Shown here in pieces: positions 49,351 to 60,173 of a DNA stretch of 64,000 nt. The notes under the pieces were generated by a model. That model was not told the DNA's origin and searched no databases. It saw only the letters and a list, made by a program, of their open reading frames with translations. How positions within the stretch are numbered: position 1 is the first letter of the stretch; the number at the start of each line of letters is the position of its first letter. The position numbers and the translations under genes were made by a program. Source of the stretch: Actinacidiphila bryophytorum. GTDB lineage: Bacteria > Actinomycetota > Actinomycetes > Streptomycetales > Streptomycetaceae. Where the stretch lies: assembly GCF_016916835.1 (NCBI RefSeq), contig NZ_JAFFIX010000005.1:310001-374000 (forward strand). Reading direction: 5' to 3'.

Positions 49351-50142
49351 TCACTGCTTGTCGAACTTCGGGGTGTCCTGCGGCCGGCCCTGGGCGTCCC
49401 GGTTGCCCTGGCCGCCCTCGATCGCCTGCGGGGCGCTGCCGCCCGCCAGCTCCGCCTTCATCCGCTGCAGCTCCAGCTCCACGTCGCTGCCGCCGGAGAT
49501 CCGGTCCAGCTCGGCCTGCAGGTCGTCCTTGGCCATGCCGGTCGGGTCGTCCAGGGCACCGGACGCGATCAGCTCGTCCAGCGCACCCGCGCGCGCCCGC
49601 AGCTGCTCGGTCTTGTCCTCGGCACGCTGGATCGCCATGCCGACGTCGCCCATCTCCTCGGAGATACCCGAGAAGGCCTCGCCGATCTGGGTCTGCGCCT
49701 GGGCGGCGGTGTAGGTGGCCTTGATGGTCTCCTTCTTCGTACGGAAGGCGTCCACCTTGGCCTGCAGGCGCTGGGAGGCCAGCGTGAGCTTCTCCTCCTC
49801 CCCCTGCAGCGTGGTGTGCTGCGTCTCCAGGTCGGTGACCTGCTGCTGCAGCGCCGCCCGCCGGGACAGCGCCTCGCGCGCCAGGTCCTCGCGCCCCAGG
49901 GCCAGCGCCTTGCGGCCCTGGTCCTCGTATGTCGCCGACTTCTTCTGCAGCTCGGTCAGCTGCAGCTCCAGCCGCTTGCGCGAGGTGGCGACGTCCGCCA
50001 CACCCCGCCGCACCTTCTGCAGCAGCTCCAGCTGCTTCTGGTACGAGTAGTCAAGCGTCTCGCGCGGGTCCTCGGCCCTGTCCAGGGCCTTGTTGGCCTT
50101 CGCGCGGAAGATCAGTCCCATCCGCTTCATGACACCGCTCAT
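49351..50142 (-). CDS. pspA: PspA/IM30 family membrane-stress protein
   Basis: A 263-residue, almost entirely helical protein. PspA/IM30 coats the inner membrane and limits proton leakage. The N-terminal amphipathic segment MKRMGLIFRAKANKALDRAEDP is followed by long coiled coils and a C-terminal disordered tail. The ATG at 50142 is likely; ATG 50130 is possible. It heads pspA-pspAA-kinase. Confidence 0.9.
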   Translation of the reverse strand: MSGVMKRMGLIFRAKANKALDRAEDPRETLDYSYQKQLELLQKVRRGVADVATSRKRLELQLTELQKKSATYEDQGRKALALGREDLAREALSRRAALQQQVTDLETQHTTLQGEEEKLTLASQRLQAKVDAFRTKKETIKATYTAAQAQTQIGEAFSGISEEMGDVGMAIQRAEDKTEQLRARAGALDELIASGALDDPTGMAKDDLQAELDRISGGSDVELELQRMKAELAGGSAPQAIEGGQGNRDAQGRPQDTPKFDKQ

Positions 50143-50356
50143 GGGCCTCGCGCGCCCCCTTCTCCGGCAACTGCTCCAGCACCTCTACAGACCCCAGCCT
50201 ACGGGCCTTGGTTCCATTACCGCACTGTTCGGACGCGGATGCGCTCATCCGCAAGGACGATCACGGGCCGCCCACCCCCTGCCCAGGGAGTAGGGAGATC
50301 GATACGACAGCCCAGGGGGCTGGGGTCGGGCGGCGGGACCACGTAACCTTGGACAT

Positions 50357-50941
50357 GTGTTCCGACGTCGTTCCGAAGATGAGCAGGCCCTCGCCGTAGC
50401 CGCGGTACTAGAGGACCAGACCCGCGACCCGCAGGCTCCCAAGGGTCGCCCCACGCCCAAGCGCAGCGAGGCCCAGCAGCAGCGCCGCAAGGCGGCCAAC
50501 ACACCGACCGACCGCAAGGCCGCCGCCAAGCAGGCCCGCGAGGCCCGCCGCGTCGACCTGGCCAAGCGCCGCGAAGCGCTGGCCAACGGCGACGAGCGGC
50601 ACCTGCCCGCCGCCCACCAGGGACCGGTGCGCAAATTCACCCGCGACTACGTCGACTCCCGCTACCGGGTCGCCGAGTTCTTCCTGCCGATGGCCGTGCT
50701 GATCCTCATCGGCAGCCTCATGCCGGCCGTGCAGACGCTGTCGCTGTTCCTGTGGGTGCTGGTCATCGTGCTGATCCTCATCGACTCGGTCATCACCGGT
50801 TTCGCCCTGCGCAGGCAGCTCGCCAAGCGCTTCCCCGACCAGAACACGAAGCGCGCCGTCACCTACGGCCTGATGCGTACGCTCCAGATGCGCCGGATGC
50901 GGCTCCCCAAGCCGCAGGTCCAGCGCGGCGCCAAACTCTGA
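50357..50941 (+). CDS. DUF3043 membrane protein
   Basis: A 194-residue protein with a basic, Ala/Arg-rich N-terminus (residues 1-95), two central hydrophobic segments (about 110-150) and a basic C-terminal tail (RMRLPKPQVQRGAKL). This is the DUF3043 pattern of actinobacteria. TAACCT eight bases before the GTG start suggests a leaderless or very short leader. It overlaps the methyltransferase gene. Confidence 0.85.
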   Translation: MFRRRSEDEQALAVAAVLEDQTRDPQAPKGRPTPKRSEAQQQRRKAANTPTDRKAAAKQAREARRVDLAKRREALANGDERHLPAAHQGPVRKFTRDYVDSRYRVAEFFLPMAVLILIGSLMPAVQTLSLFLWVLVIVLILIDSVITGFALRRQLAKRFPDQNTKRAVTYGLMRTLQMRRMRLPKPQVQRGAKL

Positions 50942-51786
50942 ACGGCATCGTCCCCGGCGGGCAGCCGGCCGCCCCCGGCGCGGGCGGATTCCACGGCGGC
51001 GCCGACAGCTGGCTCGCGGGCCTGGGCGGACTGCGGAACACCGTCAGGCAGGAGCTGGTCGCCCGGCAGCTGGACGAGCAGCTCGCCGAGCACTTCCCGC
51101 CCGCCGGCGGCGCCCACGCCGTACGGCGGCTCCGCGTGCTCGACATCGGCCCGGGCCAGGGCACGCAGGCGCTGCGGCTGGCCCGCGCCGGGCACCTCGT
51201 CACCGGCCTCGAAGCCGACCCCGCCATGCTCGCCGCACTGCGCTCCGCCGTCGCCGCCGAGCCCGCGGACGTCCGCGCCCGCTTCGTCGCCCTCCAAGGT
51301 GACGGCCGCGAGACCGGCAGGCACTTCGGGCCCGCCTGCTTCGACGTGGTCCTCTGCCACGGGGTGCTCATGTACGTGCCCGACCCCGAACCGATGCTCG
51401 CGGCGCTCTCCCGGGTGCTCGCGCCCGGGGGCCTGCTCTCGCTCGTCGTCCGCAACGGCGACGCCCTGGCCATGCGGCCAGGGCTGCTGGGGGACTGGGG
51501 CGGCGCGCTCCAGGCCTTCGGCTCCGCCGGGTACGTGAACCGCCTCGGGCTCGCCACCCGGGCGGACCGGCTCGCGCCGCTGACCCAGACGCTCACCGGG
51601 ATCTGCGCGCCGCTGCACGCCTGGTACGGCGTGCGCGTCTTCACCGACGCCGCACCCGACCACGCGGTCGCCCCCGGGGACCCTGCCACTCTGGCCGCGC
51701 TCCTCGACGCCGAGGAAGCGGCCGGCCGCACCGATCCTTATCGCGGCGTGGCCGCGCTCCTCCACGTCTGCGGCCTCCGCACCTAG
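50938..51786 (+). CDS. Class I SAM-dependent methyltransferase with a probable CTG start
   Basis: A 282-residue methyltransferase. Motif I is VLDIGPGQGTQALRL, the acidic post-I Glu is in VTGLEADP, and CFDVVLCHGVLMYVPDPEPM is motif IV. In this frame there is no ATG, GTG or TTG between the distant codon at 50752 and 51138, which lies inside motif I, so translation must begin at another codon. CTG at 50938 overlaps the upstream stop (CTGA) and gives the expected length. The stop TAG is formed by the CTAG flank of a MITE. Confidence 0.78.
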   Translation: MNGIVPGGQPAAPGAGGFHGGADSWLAGLGGLRNTVRQELVARQLDEQLAEHFPPAGGAHAVRRLRVLDIGPGQGTQALRLARAGHLVTGLEADPAMLAALRSAVAAEPADVRARFVALQGDGRETGRHFGPACFDVVLCHGVLMYVPDPEPMLAALSRVLAPGGLLSLVVRNGDALAMRPGLLGDWGGALQAFGSAGYVNRLGLATRADRLAPLTQTLTGICAPLHAWYGVRVFTDAAPDHAVAPGDPATLAALLDAEEAAGRTDPYRGVAALLHVCGLRT

Positions 51787-51959
51787 GCCGTGTTTTGGAA
51801 GTAGCGCCGTCCGCCCACAGGGCGGGCCCCGCGGCGTCCGGTGCGTGCGATCGCAAGGCGGAGGGTCGTCCTCGTAGTGGGCCTACCCGGACGACTCCGA
51901 CAACGCAGCGAGCGTGCGTGCCAGACGCCGCGGGGCAGGCGGGACTTCCAAAACACGGC
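51787..51959 (+). mobile_element. 173-bp MITE (IS5-like ends), copy 1
   Basis: Terminal inverted repeats GCCGTGTTTTGGAAGT and ACTTCCAAAACACGGC, flanked by CTAG at 51783-51786 and 51960-51963, a 4-bp duplication as made by IS5/IS427-group elements. It has no ORF. By eye it matches copy 2 (59994-60166) in reverse complement at all but five positions, with the same length. Confidence 0.85.
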
Positions 51960-51962
51960 CTA

Positions 51963-51981
51963 GCCCCTGCGGGGCGGTTTT
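51963..51981 (+). terminator. Short terminator after MITE copy 1
   Basis: GCCCC (51963-51967), loop TGC, GGGGC (51971-51975), then GGTTTT. It would have followed the methyltransferase stop directly before the MITE arrived. Confidence 0.5.
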
Positions 51982-52079
51982 CCGTCGAGGGTGCCTCTTG
52001 CGCTGGGCGCTCACCTTTCCCCCGGCGGGGGGGGTGCGCAGGTGACTGCCCCTTGCGGTGGGCTCGCACCTTGCGGTGC

Positions 52080-52270
52080 GGTGGGGGCTTGTCGCGCAGT
52101 TCCCCGCGCCCCTTAAAAACGCTCGCCCTCGCAGGCCAGGGAATGCCCGCCCTGCGGGAAGGGGGCACCCACCAGGGCGCGGGAACTGCGCGCCCAGCCC
52201 GAACGGGCGGAAAGCAAGCAACGCCACAGCAAGTGGCAATCACCCAGGGGCGCGCGGAACCCAGCGCCGG
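52080..52270. repeat. Intergenic repeat cluster upstream of htrA-like gene
   Basis: An inverted core at about 52080-52114, a shortened direct core at about 52170-52202 and a degraded one at about 52241-52262. The modules CCACCGCAAGG and GGCAATCACCCAGG also occur. No coding gene is supported between 51964 and 52386. Confidence 0.75.
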
Positions 52271-52386
52271 GGGAAGACGCACGCCCACCGCAAGGCGCAG
52301 CCTCGTAGGCGTAGCCCCAAAGCCCGAGGCACTCGGATGGGTGCGGGGCGCAGGTGGGGGCGCGGAGGCGGGGGGAGGATCGGGGC

Positions 52387-53436
52387 ATGAGGCGATCGCT
52401 CACCGTCCTTCTGCCAGGCGCGGCCCTGCTGGCCGCAACGGCCTGCACCACCGGCGCAGCCGGAAACTCGTCGTCGCCCGAGGCGAACGCCCAGGTCGCC
52501 GCGTCCGGCGGCGACGACCTGCAGACCGCGTACCAGAACACCGTGAAGGCCGTCCTGCCTTCCGTCGTGCAGATCACGACCCAGCAGGAGCTGGGCTCCG
52601 GCGTCGTCTACGACGACAAGGGCGACATCGTCACGAACGCTCACGTGATCGGCGACTCCACGAGCTTCCAGGTCTCGCTGGCCACCGGCGGCAGCCCGCT
52701 CGGCGCGAAGCTGGTCTCCTCCTTCCCCGCCAACGACCTGGCGGTCATCCGGCTGACGTCCCCGCCCAAGGACCTCAAGCCCGCCGACTTCGCGGACTCG
52801 CAGAAGGTCGCGGTGGGCCAGATCGTGCTGGCGATGGGCAACCCGCTGGGCCTGTCCAGCAGCGTCACGCAGGGCATCGTCTCGGCGACCGACCGTACGG
52901 TCAGCGAGGGCTCGTCCGGCGGCGGCACGGGAGCCACGATCCCGGACATGGTGCAGACGTCCGCCGCGATCAACCCCGGCAACAGCGGCGGCGCCCTGGT
53001 CAACCTCGACAACCAGGTGATCGGCATCCCCACGCTGGCCGCCACTGACCCGCAGTTCGGCAGCGGGGCGGCGCCCGGCATCGGCTTCGCGATCCCGTCC
53101 TCGACGGTGAAGCGGATCGCCGACCAGATCATCAAGAACGGCAAGGTCACCGACTCCGGCCGGGCCGCGCTCGACGTGACGGTGCGGGGTGTGGTCGACC
53201 AGGACCAGCAGCCGGCGGGGGTGGCGATCGTGTCCGTGACCAAGGGCGGCGCCGCCGCCAAGGCCGGGCTGCAGTCGGGTGACGTGATCACCAAGCTCGG
53301 CGGTACGCCGATCACCACCGTGCAGAGCCTCACGACCGCGCTGGCCGCGCTCACCCCGGGCACGAAGGTGCCGGTGACCTACGAGCGGGGCGGCGCGACG
53401 AAGACCACGCAGGTCACGCTGGCGTCGCTGGGCTGA
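52387..53436 (+). CDS. HtrA/DegP-like serine protease, lipoprotein form
   Basis: A 349-residue trypsin-like protease. A lipobox-like ATAC places C20 at the start of the mature protein. The catalytic triad is H86 (NAHVIG), D117 (NDLAVIRL) and S200 (GNSGGAL); a PDZ domain spans about 265-345. It acts outside the membrane in protein quality control. ATG at 52387 follows GGGAGGA. Confidence 0.9.
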   Translation: MRRSLTVLLPGAALLAATACTTGAAGNSSSPEANAQVAASGGDDLQTAYQNTVKAVLPSVVQITTQQELGSGVVYDDKGDIVTNAHVIGDSTSFQVSLATGGSPLGAKLVSSFPANDLAVIRLTSPPKDLKPADFADSQKVAVGQIVLAMGNPLGLSSSVTQGIVSATDRTVSEGSSGGGTGATIPDMVQTSAAINPGNSGGALVNLDNQVIGIPTLAATDPQFGSGAAPGIGFAIPSSTVKRIADQIIKNGKVTDSGRAALDVTVRGVVDQDQQPAGVAIVSVTKGGAAAKAGLQSGDVITKLGGTPITTVQSLTTALAALTPGTKVPVTYERGGATKTTQVTLASLG

Positions 53437-53443
53437 GAAAGAC

Positions 53444-53468
53444 CGGTGCCCCCCGCCGGGGGGCACCG
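53444..53468. terminator. Hairpin between convergent genes
   Basis: A perfect 11-bp stem (CGGTGCCCCCC with GGGGGGCACCG) and loop GCC in the gap between the htrA-like gene and a small convergent gene. Confidence 0.75.
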
Positions 53469-53473
53469 CGTCG

Positions 53474-53680
53474 TCACGCGTCGGCGTGCAGGTTCATCGG
53501 GCCGTAGATCTTCGCGTCGCCGTCGAAGAGGACCACCTGGTCGGCGCCGCCTTCGAGCAGGTCCTTCCAGGACTCGCCGAGCCAGGACTCGGCATCGCCC
53601 TGCGTGGTGAACTCCTCGGGCTGCACCGCGGGCTCCACCTCGGTGCCGTCGGCCTTCTCGAACCGCCACGTCCACGCCAT
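53474..53680 (-). CDS. Small conserved protein, function unknown
   Basis: A 68-residue protein with Trp-rich ends (MAWTWRFEKADG and LGESWKDLL). ATG at 53680 is preceded by GGAG at about eight bases. No membrane segment or metal motif. I recognise it as widespread in Streptomyces but without a function. Confidence 0.7.
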   Translation of the reverse strand: MAWTWRFEKADGTEVEPAVQPEEFTTQGDAESWLGESWKDLLEGGADQVVLFDGDAKIYGPMNLHADA

Positions 53681-58611: not shown

Positions 58612-59233
58612 CGTCGCCACCCGGATCCGCAGCCGCGGACCGCGGGCGGTCCCCGTCACCCTCGGCGCCTGCGCCGGCATCCTCCTGCTGCAGCTCCTCC
58701 AGCACCTCCACGGCACGCACACCTGGGTCGAACGCCTCGGCGGCGTCTACGCCGGCCTCCCCTGGTGGCAGGCGCTGCTGCGCACCCCCGTCTCGGTCTT
58801 CCTGCCCGACCCCTCGCTGCCCGTATGGGGCCTGCTCCTGCAGGTCCTCGTCGTCTTCGGCATCGCCGAGACCACGGTGGGGCCGCGCCGCACCCTCGCC
58901 GTGGCCCTGCTGGCGACCCTCGCCGGGACCGGCTTCGCCCGCTACTCCCTGTGGGCAGGACCGCACTGGCCGCCCGGCCTGCCCGCGCACGACCTCCTGG
59001 TACGCGACACCGGGCCGTCCGCGGCCGTCGTCGCCCTCGGCGTCCACGTCGCCCTGCGCTACCGGGCGTGGTGGACGGTCGGCACGATCGTGCTGGCCAT
59101 GGTGGTCGAGGTCGTCTCCCTCCCCAACCTCGCCGGCTACGAACACCTCGCAGGCGTCGCCCTCGTCCTCGCCCTCTTCACCCGGCAGGTAGCCTCGCGC
59201 GGTGACCACCCCGCCGCCCGCCACCCTCGCTGA
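58490..59233 (+). CDS. Rhomboid-like multi-pass membrane protein
   Basis: A 247-residue protein with a proline-rich cytoplasmic start and about five or six hydrophobic segments (about 50-245). No GASG-type catalytic motif is visible, so it may be a rhomboid-fold pseudoprotease. The frame opens inside the upstream gene; GTG 58490 and ATG 58436 are both possible. It overlaps the upstream gene and cobS, in different frames. Confidence 0.62.
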   Translation: MPRASSASPASPPPSAAAPPPPAARWSRWPLAAEWRTVLTDVATRIRSRGPRAVPVTLGACAGILLLQLLQHLHGTHTWVERLGGVYAGLPWWQALLRTPVSVFLPDPSLPVWGLLLQVLVVFGIAETTVGPRRTLAVALLATLAGTGFARYSLWAGPHWPPGLPAHDLLVRDTGPSAAVVALGVHVALRYRAWWTVGTIVLAMVVEVVSLPNLAGYEHLAGVALVLALFTRQVASRGDHPAARHPR

Positions 59234-59993
59234 CGCCCTGCGGTTCGCCTTCGGCACGCTCACCGTGCTGCCCGCCCGGCTCACCCGCTGGGACCGCGCC
59301 GCTGCCCGCGGCGGCATGCTCGCCGCGCCCCTCGTCGGCGCCGTCGTCGGCCTGGCCGCCGCGGCCGCGGGCGGTGTCCTCGTCGCCCTCGGTGCCACAC
59401 CGCTGCTCGCCGCGGTCGGCACCGTCGCGGTGCCCGCGGTCCTCACCCGCGGGCTGCACCTCGACGGGCTCGCCGACACCGCGGACGCGCTCGGCTCCGG
59501 CAAGGAGGCGGAAGAGGCGCTGCGGATCATGAAGCAGTCCGACATCGGGCCGTTCGGGGTCCTCACCCTCGTCCTCGTCCTGCTCGCGCAGGTCGCCTCC
59601 GCTGCCGCGTGCTACGGGCACGGGTGGGTGTACGGCGGCGGCGCCGCGCTCGTCTCCGCCGTCGCCGGGCGCACCGCACTCCTCGCCGCGTGCCGCCGCG
59701 GGATCCCGGCCGCCAGGCCGGGCGGTCTCGGCGCCGCCGTCGCCGGGTCCGTACCGCCCTGGGCCGCGCTCGGCCCCACCGCGCTGTGTGCCGCCGTCGC
59801 CGCGGCCGCGGCCACGCCCTTCGGCGGGCTCACCCCCCTCCGGTTCGCCGCCGCCGTCCTCTGCGGCACCGCGGCCGGCGAGCTCCTCGTGCGGCGCTGC
59901 ACGCGCCGCTTCGGCGGCGTCACCGGCGACGTCTTCGGCGCCGCCACGGAGGCCGCGGCCACGGTGGCCTTCCTGGCCCTAGCCCTGCGCTAG
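59202..59993 (+). CDS. cobS: Adenosylcobinamide-GDP ribazoletransferase (cobalamin synthase)
   Basis: A 263-residue membrane enzyme that joins adenosylcobinamide-GDP and alpha-ribazole. Motifs: LHLDGLADTADALGSG near 85-100 and GGVTGDVFGA near 240. Several hydrophobic segments fit the integral-membrane CobS. GTG start at 59202 overlaps the preceding gene by 32 bp. Its TAG stop lies inside the CTAG flank of a MITE. Confidence 0.92.
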   Translation: MTTPPPATLADALRFAFGTLTVLPARLTRWDRAAARGGMLAAPLVGAVVGLAAAAAGGVLVALGATPLLAAVGTVAVPAVLTRGLHLDGLADTADALGSGKEAEEALRIMKQSDIGPFGVLTLVLVLLAQVASAAACYGHGWVYGGGAALVSAVAGRTALLAACRRGIPAARPGGLGAAVAGSVPPWAALGPTALCAAVAAAAATPFGGLTPLRFAAAVLCGTAAGELLVRRCTRRFGGVTGDVFGAATEAAATVAFLALALR

Positions 59994-60166
59994 GCCGTGT
60001 TTTGGAAGTCCCGCCTGCCCCGCGACGCCTGGCACGCACGCTCGCTGCGTTGTCGGAGTCGTCCGAGCAGGCCCACTACGAGGACGACCCTCCGCCTTGC
60101 GATCGCACGCACCGGACGCCGCGGGGCCCGCCCTGTGGGCGGACGGCCCTACTTCCAAAACACGGC
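59994..60166 (-). mobile_element. 173-bp MITE (IS5-like ends), copy 2, inverted
   Basis: Same terminal inverted repeats as copy 1, flanked by CTAG at 59990-59993 and 60167-60170. Placed in the opposite orientation. No ORF. The pair spans about 8 kb of ordinary conserved genes. Confidence 0.85.
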
Positions 60167-60173
60167 CTAGCCC

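Follow-up and report, generated by a model that had tools for sequence, protein, structure and literature searches.

A MITE of Actinacidiphila bryophytorum located mostly at TAG stop codons, probably through CTAG targeting and loss of harmful insertions

The window, meaning the whole 64,000-nucleotide stretch that was analysed, contains a methyltransferase gene whose stop codon shares a base with a MITE (Table 1). The class I methyltransferase domain (PF08241) is matched in the upstream ORF at 3.7e-18. The 3′ part of the gene is certain; its true start is uncertain, and the ORF list begins it at 50752. The element lies within inverted repeats (51783–51808 and 51938–51963) that are 92% complementary. 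Its 17-nt end has four matches in the window at up to three mismatches, as against 0.07 expected, and these are the ends of two complete copies, both of which sit exactly on a TAG stop. The element has the size of a MITE, being below about 500 bp and without a transposase gene; the ORFs that cross it are outside frames running on. It also has terminal inverted repeats (TIRs), a TA duplication on both sides in most copies, and 82 dispersed complete copies in the genome. An Rfam search of positions 50000–53500 returned no known RNA family at the element up to an E value of 1.

Table 1. Coordinates of the features at the two MITE copies of the window.
Feature	Positions	Strand	Remark	Basis
Class I methyltransferase gene	51136..51786	+		Codon-score gene call, ORF list, Pfam PF08241
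TAG stop of methyltransferase	51784..51786	+	TA from target, G is element's first base	Sequence, flank comparison
MITE copy 1	51786..51960	+	175 bp, GGCC...GGCC	Inverted repeats, end matches, flank comparison, fold
Left terminal inverted repeat	51786..51802	+	GGCCGTGTTTTGGAAGT	17-nt end search
Right terminal inverted repeat	51944..51960	-		17-nt end search
Conserved hairpin core	51838..51930	+	Element positions 53-145; apex 86-112 variable	Copy alignment
Far-side second TA of duplication	51961..51962	.		Flank comparison (L158)
Terminator-like hairpin	51963..51975	+	Then GGTTTT	Sequence
Gene with stop completed by MITE copy 2	59202..59993	+	TAG stop at 59991-59993	Codon-score call, copy census (L159)
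MITE copy 2	59993..60167	-	Inverted	17-nt end search, genome copy search

The sequence-only reading of this DNA had placed copy 1 in a CTAG that contains the methyltransferase stop as its TAG, and the ORF does end there. It had also taken the CTAG to be the flanking duplication, and in this it was mistaken. When the flanks of 74 copies are aligned, most read CTA, then GGCC...GGCC, then TAG, which is compatible with a duplication of either 2 or 4 bp. At five copies in targets other than CTAG (L109, L114, L115, L155 and L169), TA alone is repeated; the outer base varies on one side only, and GGCC...GGCC is constant. Therefore, the duplication is TA, a 4-bp CTAG duplication is rejected, and CTAG is the preferred target. 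The targets of the copies fit YTAR, with CTA/CTA at 66 of the 82. Since TA is duplicated and the element starts with GGCC, it is the element that supplies, with its first base, the G of the TAG.

Orthologues of the methyltransferase were found at 29 loci (L216–L244) in other genomes of the genus. Of the 28 that are readable, 27 end at the equivalent residue; L243 is a longer protein. A truncated gene is thereby rejected at this locus, and the earlier view that the insertion leaves the stop intact holds up. The equivalent stop is TGA in the nearest relatives (90–91% DNA identity) and lies in CTAG in several others. No complete element occurs at this stop in the orthologous sequences shown, so the insertion of copy 1 looks specific to its own lineage. 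In one orthologue (L234, genome G006), CTAG at the same stop is followed by GGCGTGTTTCG, which resembles the end of an element; similarity to the next gene starts well within this stretch. An old insertion combined with a deletion may lie behind this.

The element had further been described as lying between the coding end and a terminator. Copy 1 has this arrangement, as does copy 2 when judged by eye. As a general rule it is not supported: terminator-like hairpins lie on the far side of 5 of 66 copies as compared with 9 of 260 ordinary stops (p 0.17).

We searched the organism's own genome (8.05 Mb, 96 contigs) for further copies. There are 75 with the internal core, five short ones (62–67 bp), two more that are shortened (L178 and L179), and L180, which runs into the end of a contig and is excluded from the 82 complete copies. 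The mean pairwise identity of 74 long copies is 97.3%. With gene ends taken from a codon-score caller rather than an annotation, the same scores being applied to other genomes, 68 of the 82 complete copies lie exactly at a TAG stop (38 by the left end, 27 by the right, and 3 on both sides). Thirteen of the remainder are intergenic and one is called within a gene; L138, with a right flank of three bases only, is counted as non-stop. L125 is a 69th copy at a stop, its end being 1 bp longer, and it is included in the harmless-site comparison below. CTAGs without an element in the same sequence (n = 70) divide into 19 at stops, 42 intergenic, 7 coding and 2 at an edge. The association of 68/82 against 19/70 has a Fisher odds ratio (OR) of 13 (p 3.5e-12). 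Thus, a survey of the kind that the sequence-only reading had proposed finds the preference to be general, where copies without any preference for stops would have spoken against it. One could still ask whether a stop position is mere coincidence. Stops lying in CTAG are in themselves no rarity (19 of 341 sampled stops without an element), so isolated cases are expected, but the census refutes coincidence as the explanation, and we give it practically no credence.

Several unusual copies were seen in the census. L114, L123 and L179, together with L188 in genome G021, lie between convergent genes and complete the TAG stops of both; a single CTAG may earlier have served both genes. Seven copies (L181–L185, L178 and L179; 58–105 bp) have lost most of the inner hairpin and kept both ends, and five of them are at stops. 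L141 (G000:C23:63447-68647) has the same core with other ends (GGGCGCGTCCGCAAAGTC...) and is likewise at a TAG stop.

Element matches occur in 34 of 35 genomes of the genus and in 154 of 200 genomes of the family, covering 14 of 17 genera. We surveyed 75 copies in other genomes, chosen for good matches. Outside G020, 37 of 55 are at stops (G032 15/20, G006 7/8, G026 4/5, G003 1/3, G007 0/2, G019 2/2 and single loci 8/15). Most copies in G020 have ends like AAGGGTGTTGCGAAAG and flanks of the form CTN...NAG. By raw count, 13 of 20 copies there are at a stop: four at TAG, and nine at a TGA or TAA to which the element contributes its initial A as the last base. The flanking triplets in this genome (L264–L282) are often TNA with middle bases that differ between the two sides (for example TCA and TTA), making the duplication inexact. 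A second set, from named Streptomycetaceae, used 80 of 103 stretches as loci. Of its 81 copies, 40 sit exactly at a stop and 1 nearly so; 31 are intergenic, 4 lie in coding sequence and 5 have no ends. It shares copies with the 75-copy survey (for example L367, L381, L418 and L426), so the two sets are not independent. Its statistics use the 65 copies whose TIR matches at 14 or more of 17 bases, 16 being dropped. Among these, 38 of 65 are at stops as compared with 18 of 69 CTAGs (OR 4.0, p 0.0002).

We think it likely that the association with stops comes from CTAG targeting and the loss of harmful insertions, the MITE having been moved in trans by an IS427-like enzyme. The element is a non-autonomous MITE, probably served by an IS5-family, IS427-like transposase. 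That enzyme would join the GGNCNTGT... ends to the TA of YTAR targets, among which CTAG is favoured, and duplicate the TA; here the enzymatic step is inferred, and its product is read from the copies. CTAG is scarce in this GC-rich genome and is found chiefly upstream of genes or in TAG stops. Since TA is duplicated and the element begins with G, insertion at a TAG restores the stop, and such copies would survive. Insertions within or upstream of genes would mostly be lost. Plain CTAG specificity combined with loss of the harmful copies would thus produce a strong stop-codon association.

Intergenic CTAGs that are not part of a stop are found mainly upstream of genes. Of 43, a number that includes two that are ends of a neighbouring copy, 17 lie between divergent genes, and many of the upstream ones look like promoter -10 regions. 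We defined harmless sites as the CTAGs or copies left after removing those up to 150 bp upstream of a gene and also ran cut-offs of 100–300 bp. At 150 bp, the ratio of stop to other sites is 69:8 for copies against 18:9 for background (OR 4.3, p 0.012), and over the range of cut-offs in the own genome the OR is 2.6–4.6 with p 0.003–0.23. The second set against harmless sites gives an OR of 1.6–2.4 (p 0.07–0.43), and the two combined at 150 bp give 2.7 (p 0.008), a comparison that, with harmless non-stop CTAGs being few, rests on 9 and 13 background sites. Most of the association therefore follows the location of harmless CTAGs, and a modest residual at stops remains.

The residual could mean that the transposition machinery itself favours stop codons beyond CTAG, whether because of the way DNA or transcripts are structured where genes end or because of a coupling to termination. 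The OR of 2.7 after matching harmless sites is what such a preference would leave, and the G020 copies, mostly with other ends and flanks, are still often at stops by raw count. Copy age, judged by private changes, likewise makes no difference to the stop share (31 of 37 copies without such changes and 32 of 37 of the others), so the counts do not show bad copies in the course of being lost. As against this, the residual varies with the cut-off and depends on the few background sites just given, and by eye the insertion sites have no common sequence beyond CTAG. We regard an active preference for stops as unlikely. Nine of the 65 copies with one exact stop have an altered TA, and every time it is the TA opposite the stop; this fits selection on the stop, in a class partly defined by an intact stop. 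Returning to CTAG targeting with loss, the original observation was right apart from the size of the duplication, and the family-wide rule can mostly be put down to target supply and the loss of harmful insertions.

The sequence-only reading had also proposed looking for a parent IS with the same ends. No IS with exactly the GGCCGTGTTTTGGAAGT TIR (up to two mismatches) was found in the own genome among the matches listed, 100 of 168, and none was found in 34 other genomes of the genus. Among seven DUF4096 loci that the organism's genome offers as possible parents, L096 alone has clear TA-flanked ends, and those differ. G032 has MITE ends GGCCGTGTCTGACAAAT and a DUF4096 IS (L329) that is flanked by TA at each end and whose ends, GGCCCTGTCTGACAAAT / GGCCGTGTCTGATAAAT, match those of that genome's own MITE. 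G029 has a complete IS (L315/L349) with ends GGGCGTGTTTTAGAAGT, two mismatches of 17 from the TIR of the present element, and its protein (L315) matches DUF4096 and DDE_Tnp_1. An IS-like end in G018 (L304, GGCCGTGTTTTAGAAGT) is one mismatch of 17 away. From the ends, duplication and target, the best-supported route is that an IS5/IS427-like enzyme moves the element in trans. Other DUF4096 ISs (L328 and L338 in G019, L332 and L339 in G029) have TNA triplets, TGA or TCA, on both sides, so the target varies within this IS group. L339 also adjoins a TGA stop.

The whole element forms one hairpin, which as RNA has -128.8 kcal/mol against a mean of -83.1 for 200 shuffles (z -10.4). Its core is conserved, and its end segments vary from genome to genome. 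Among 55 copies there are 40 different 17-nt left ends. Averaged over pairs of copies, identity is 0.84 for the outer 8 bases and 0.55–0.58 for the inner TIR; the right core arm has 0.87 and the apex 0.64. Some loci were picked by an exact 26-nt match to the left core arm, so the right arm alone is a fair measure of core identity. In 42 distinct rows of the 55, long forms being dropped, 36 of 66 pairs have changed on both sides and 97.9% of cells are paired, whereas 300 shuffles, which do not control for relatedness, reach no more than 26 pairs and 88.3%. The strand carrying the core forward folds better in 44 of 44 copies tested. Orientation to the gene is 37 same and 29 opposite (p 0.39), and 17 and 23 in the second set (p 0.43).

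Such a structure might be useful behind a stop, as a transcription terminator or as protection of the mRNA 3′ end, with copies being kept by positive selection. Its great stability, the stem kept through changes on both sides, the core conserved across many genera and the consistently better fold of one strand would all be expected of a working hairpin. But orientation to the gene is random even though the strands fold unequally, giving no support to an orientation-specific 3′ RNA; there is no T-run; and a foldback transposon keeps complementary arms with no benefit to the host. We consider a useful hairpin quite improbable.

We read the conserved core and differing ends as one core lineage whose ends may have been replaced to suit different transposases, by IS recombination or by gradual change. 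The inner TIR is presumably the transposase binding site. A bolder version, which we hold only as a tentative and rather doubtful idea, is that an ancient core spread through the family while its inner TIR was repeatedly swapped to fit the resident IS427-like transposase, with the core, the outer GGNCNTGT and the stop habitat being kept. On that account, the end base that completes the stop (G for TAG; in the lineage whose ends are AAGGGTG, A for TGA or TAA) would make the element adapted to stop codons, and it may even be directed there.

Further repeats lie within the core. A 25–30-bp hairpin of type GGGGGCACCTCCCAGCGGTAGCTGGGGGA is inserted at differing points of the core in L261–L263 (G032), L281 (G020), L197 and L440, as though the core had taken up a smaller repeat. 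In the core of copy 1 and related copies, GTGCGTGC is present in both arms in the same direction, G-U paired, in 39 of 55 copies, and the perfect palindrome TGCGATCGCA in 47 of 55.

The element offers a countable case of a transposon with a rare 4-base target settling a harmless niche, the TAG stop, and supplying one base of the stop itself. Its conserved core and exchanged ends make it testable whether a MITE can outlive its transposase by switching, and for what the core is conserved. In annotation, this repeat, which is frequent at the 3′ ends of genes across the family, should not be called a terminator by default.

REP/BIME sequences are palindromic repeats near gene 3′ ends, REPs being about 20–40 nt and linked to RAYT transposases. 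The element is like them in being palindromic and close to gene 3′ ends and unlike them in its 175-bp unit, TIRs and TA duplication; on size and TA duplication, we reject membership.

In the parts of the literature consulted, which was mostly openly accessible, we found no description of this element nor of a MITE preferring stop codons. Correia/NEMIS, ERIC and RUP are comparable MITEs, being short, high in copy number and folded as a whole-element hairpin, with TIRs and terminal TA, as far as seen in PMC2229807. The present element differs in being GC-rich, in its strong association with stop codons, unmentioned for them in the portion of PMC2229807 consulted, and in combining a conserved core with a variable inner TIR where conserved ends are expected. 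From the ISs of the IS427 group, it differs in lacking a transposase and having only ends in common with them, none with exactly its ends having been found. The sections seen of two papers give 2-bp repeats for most members of the group (PMC3281130) and CTAG direct repeats for a related mycobacterial IS (PMC9241763). It is nonetheless to the IS427 group of the IS5 family that the element is alike in TA duplication, YTAR/CTAG target and GGNCNTGT-type ends, the matching ISs carrying a DUF4096 and DDE transposase.
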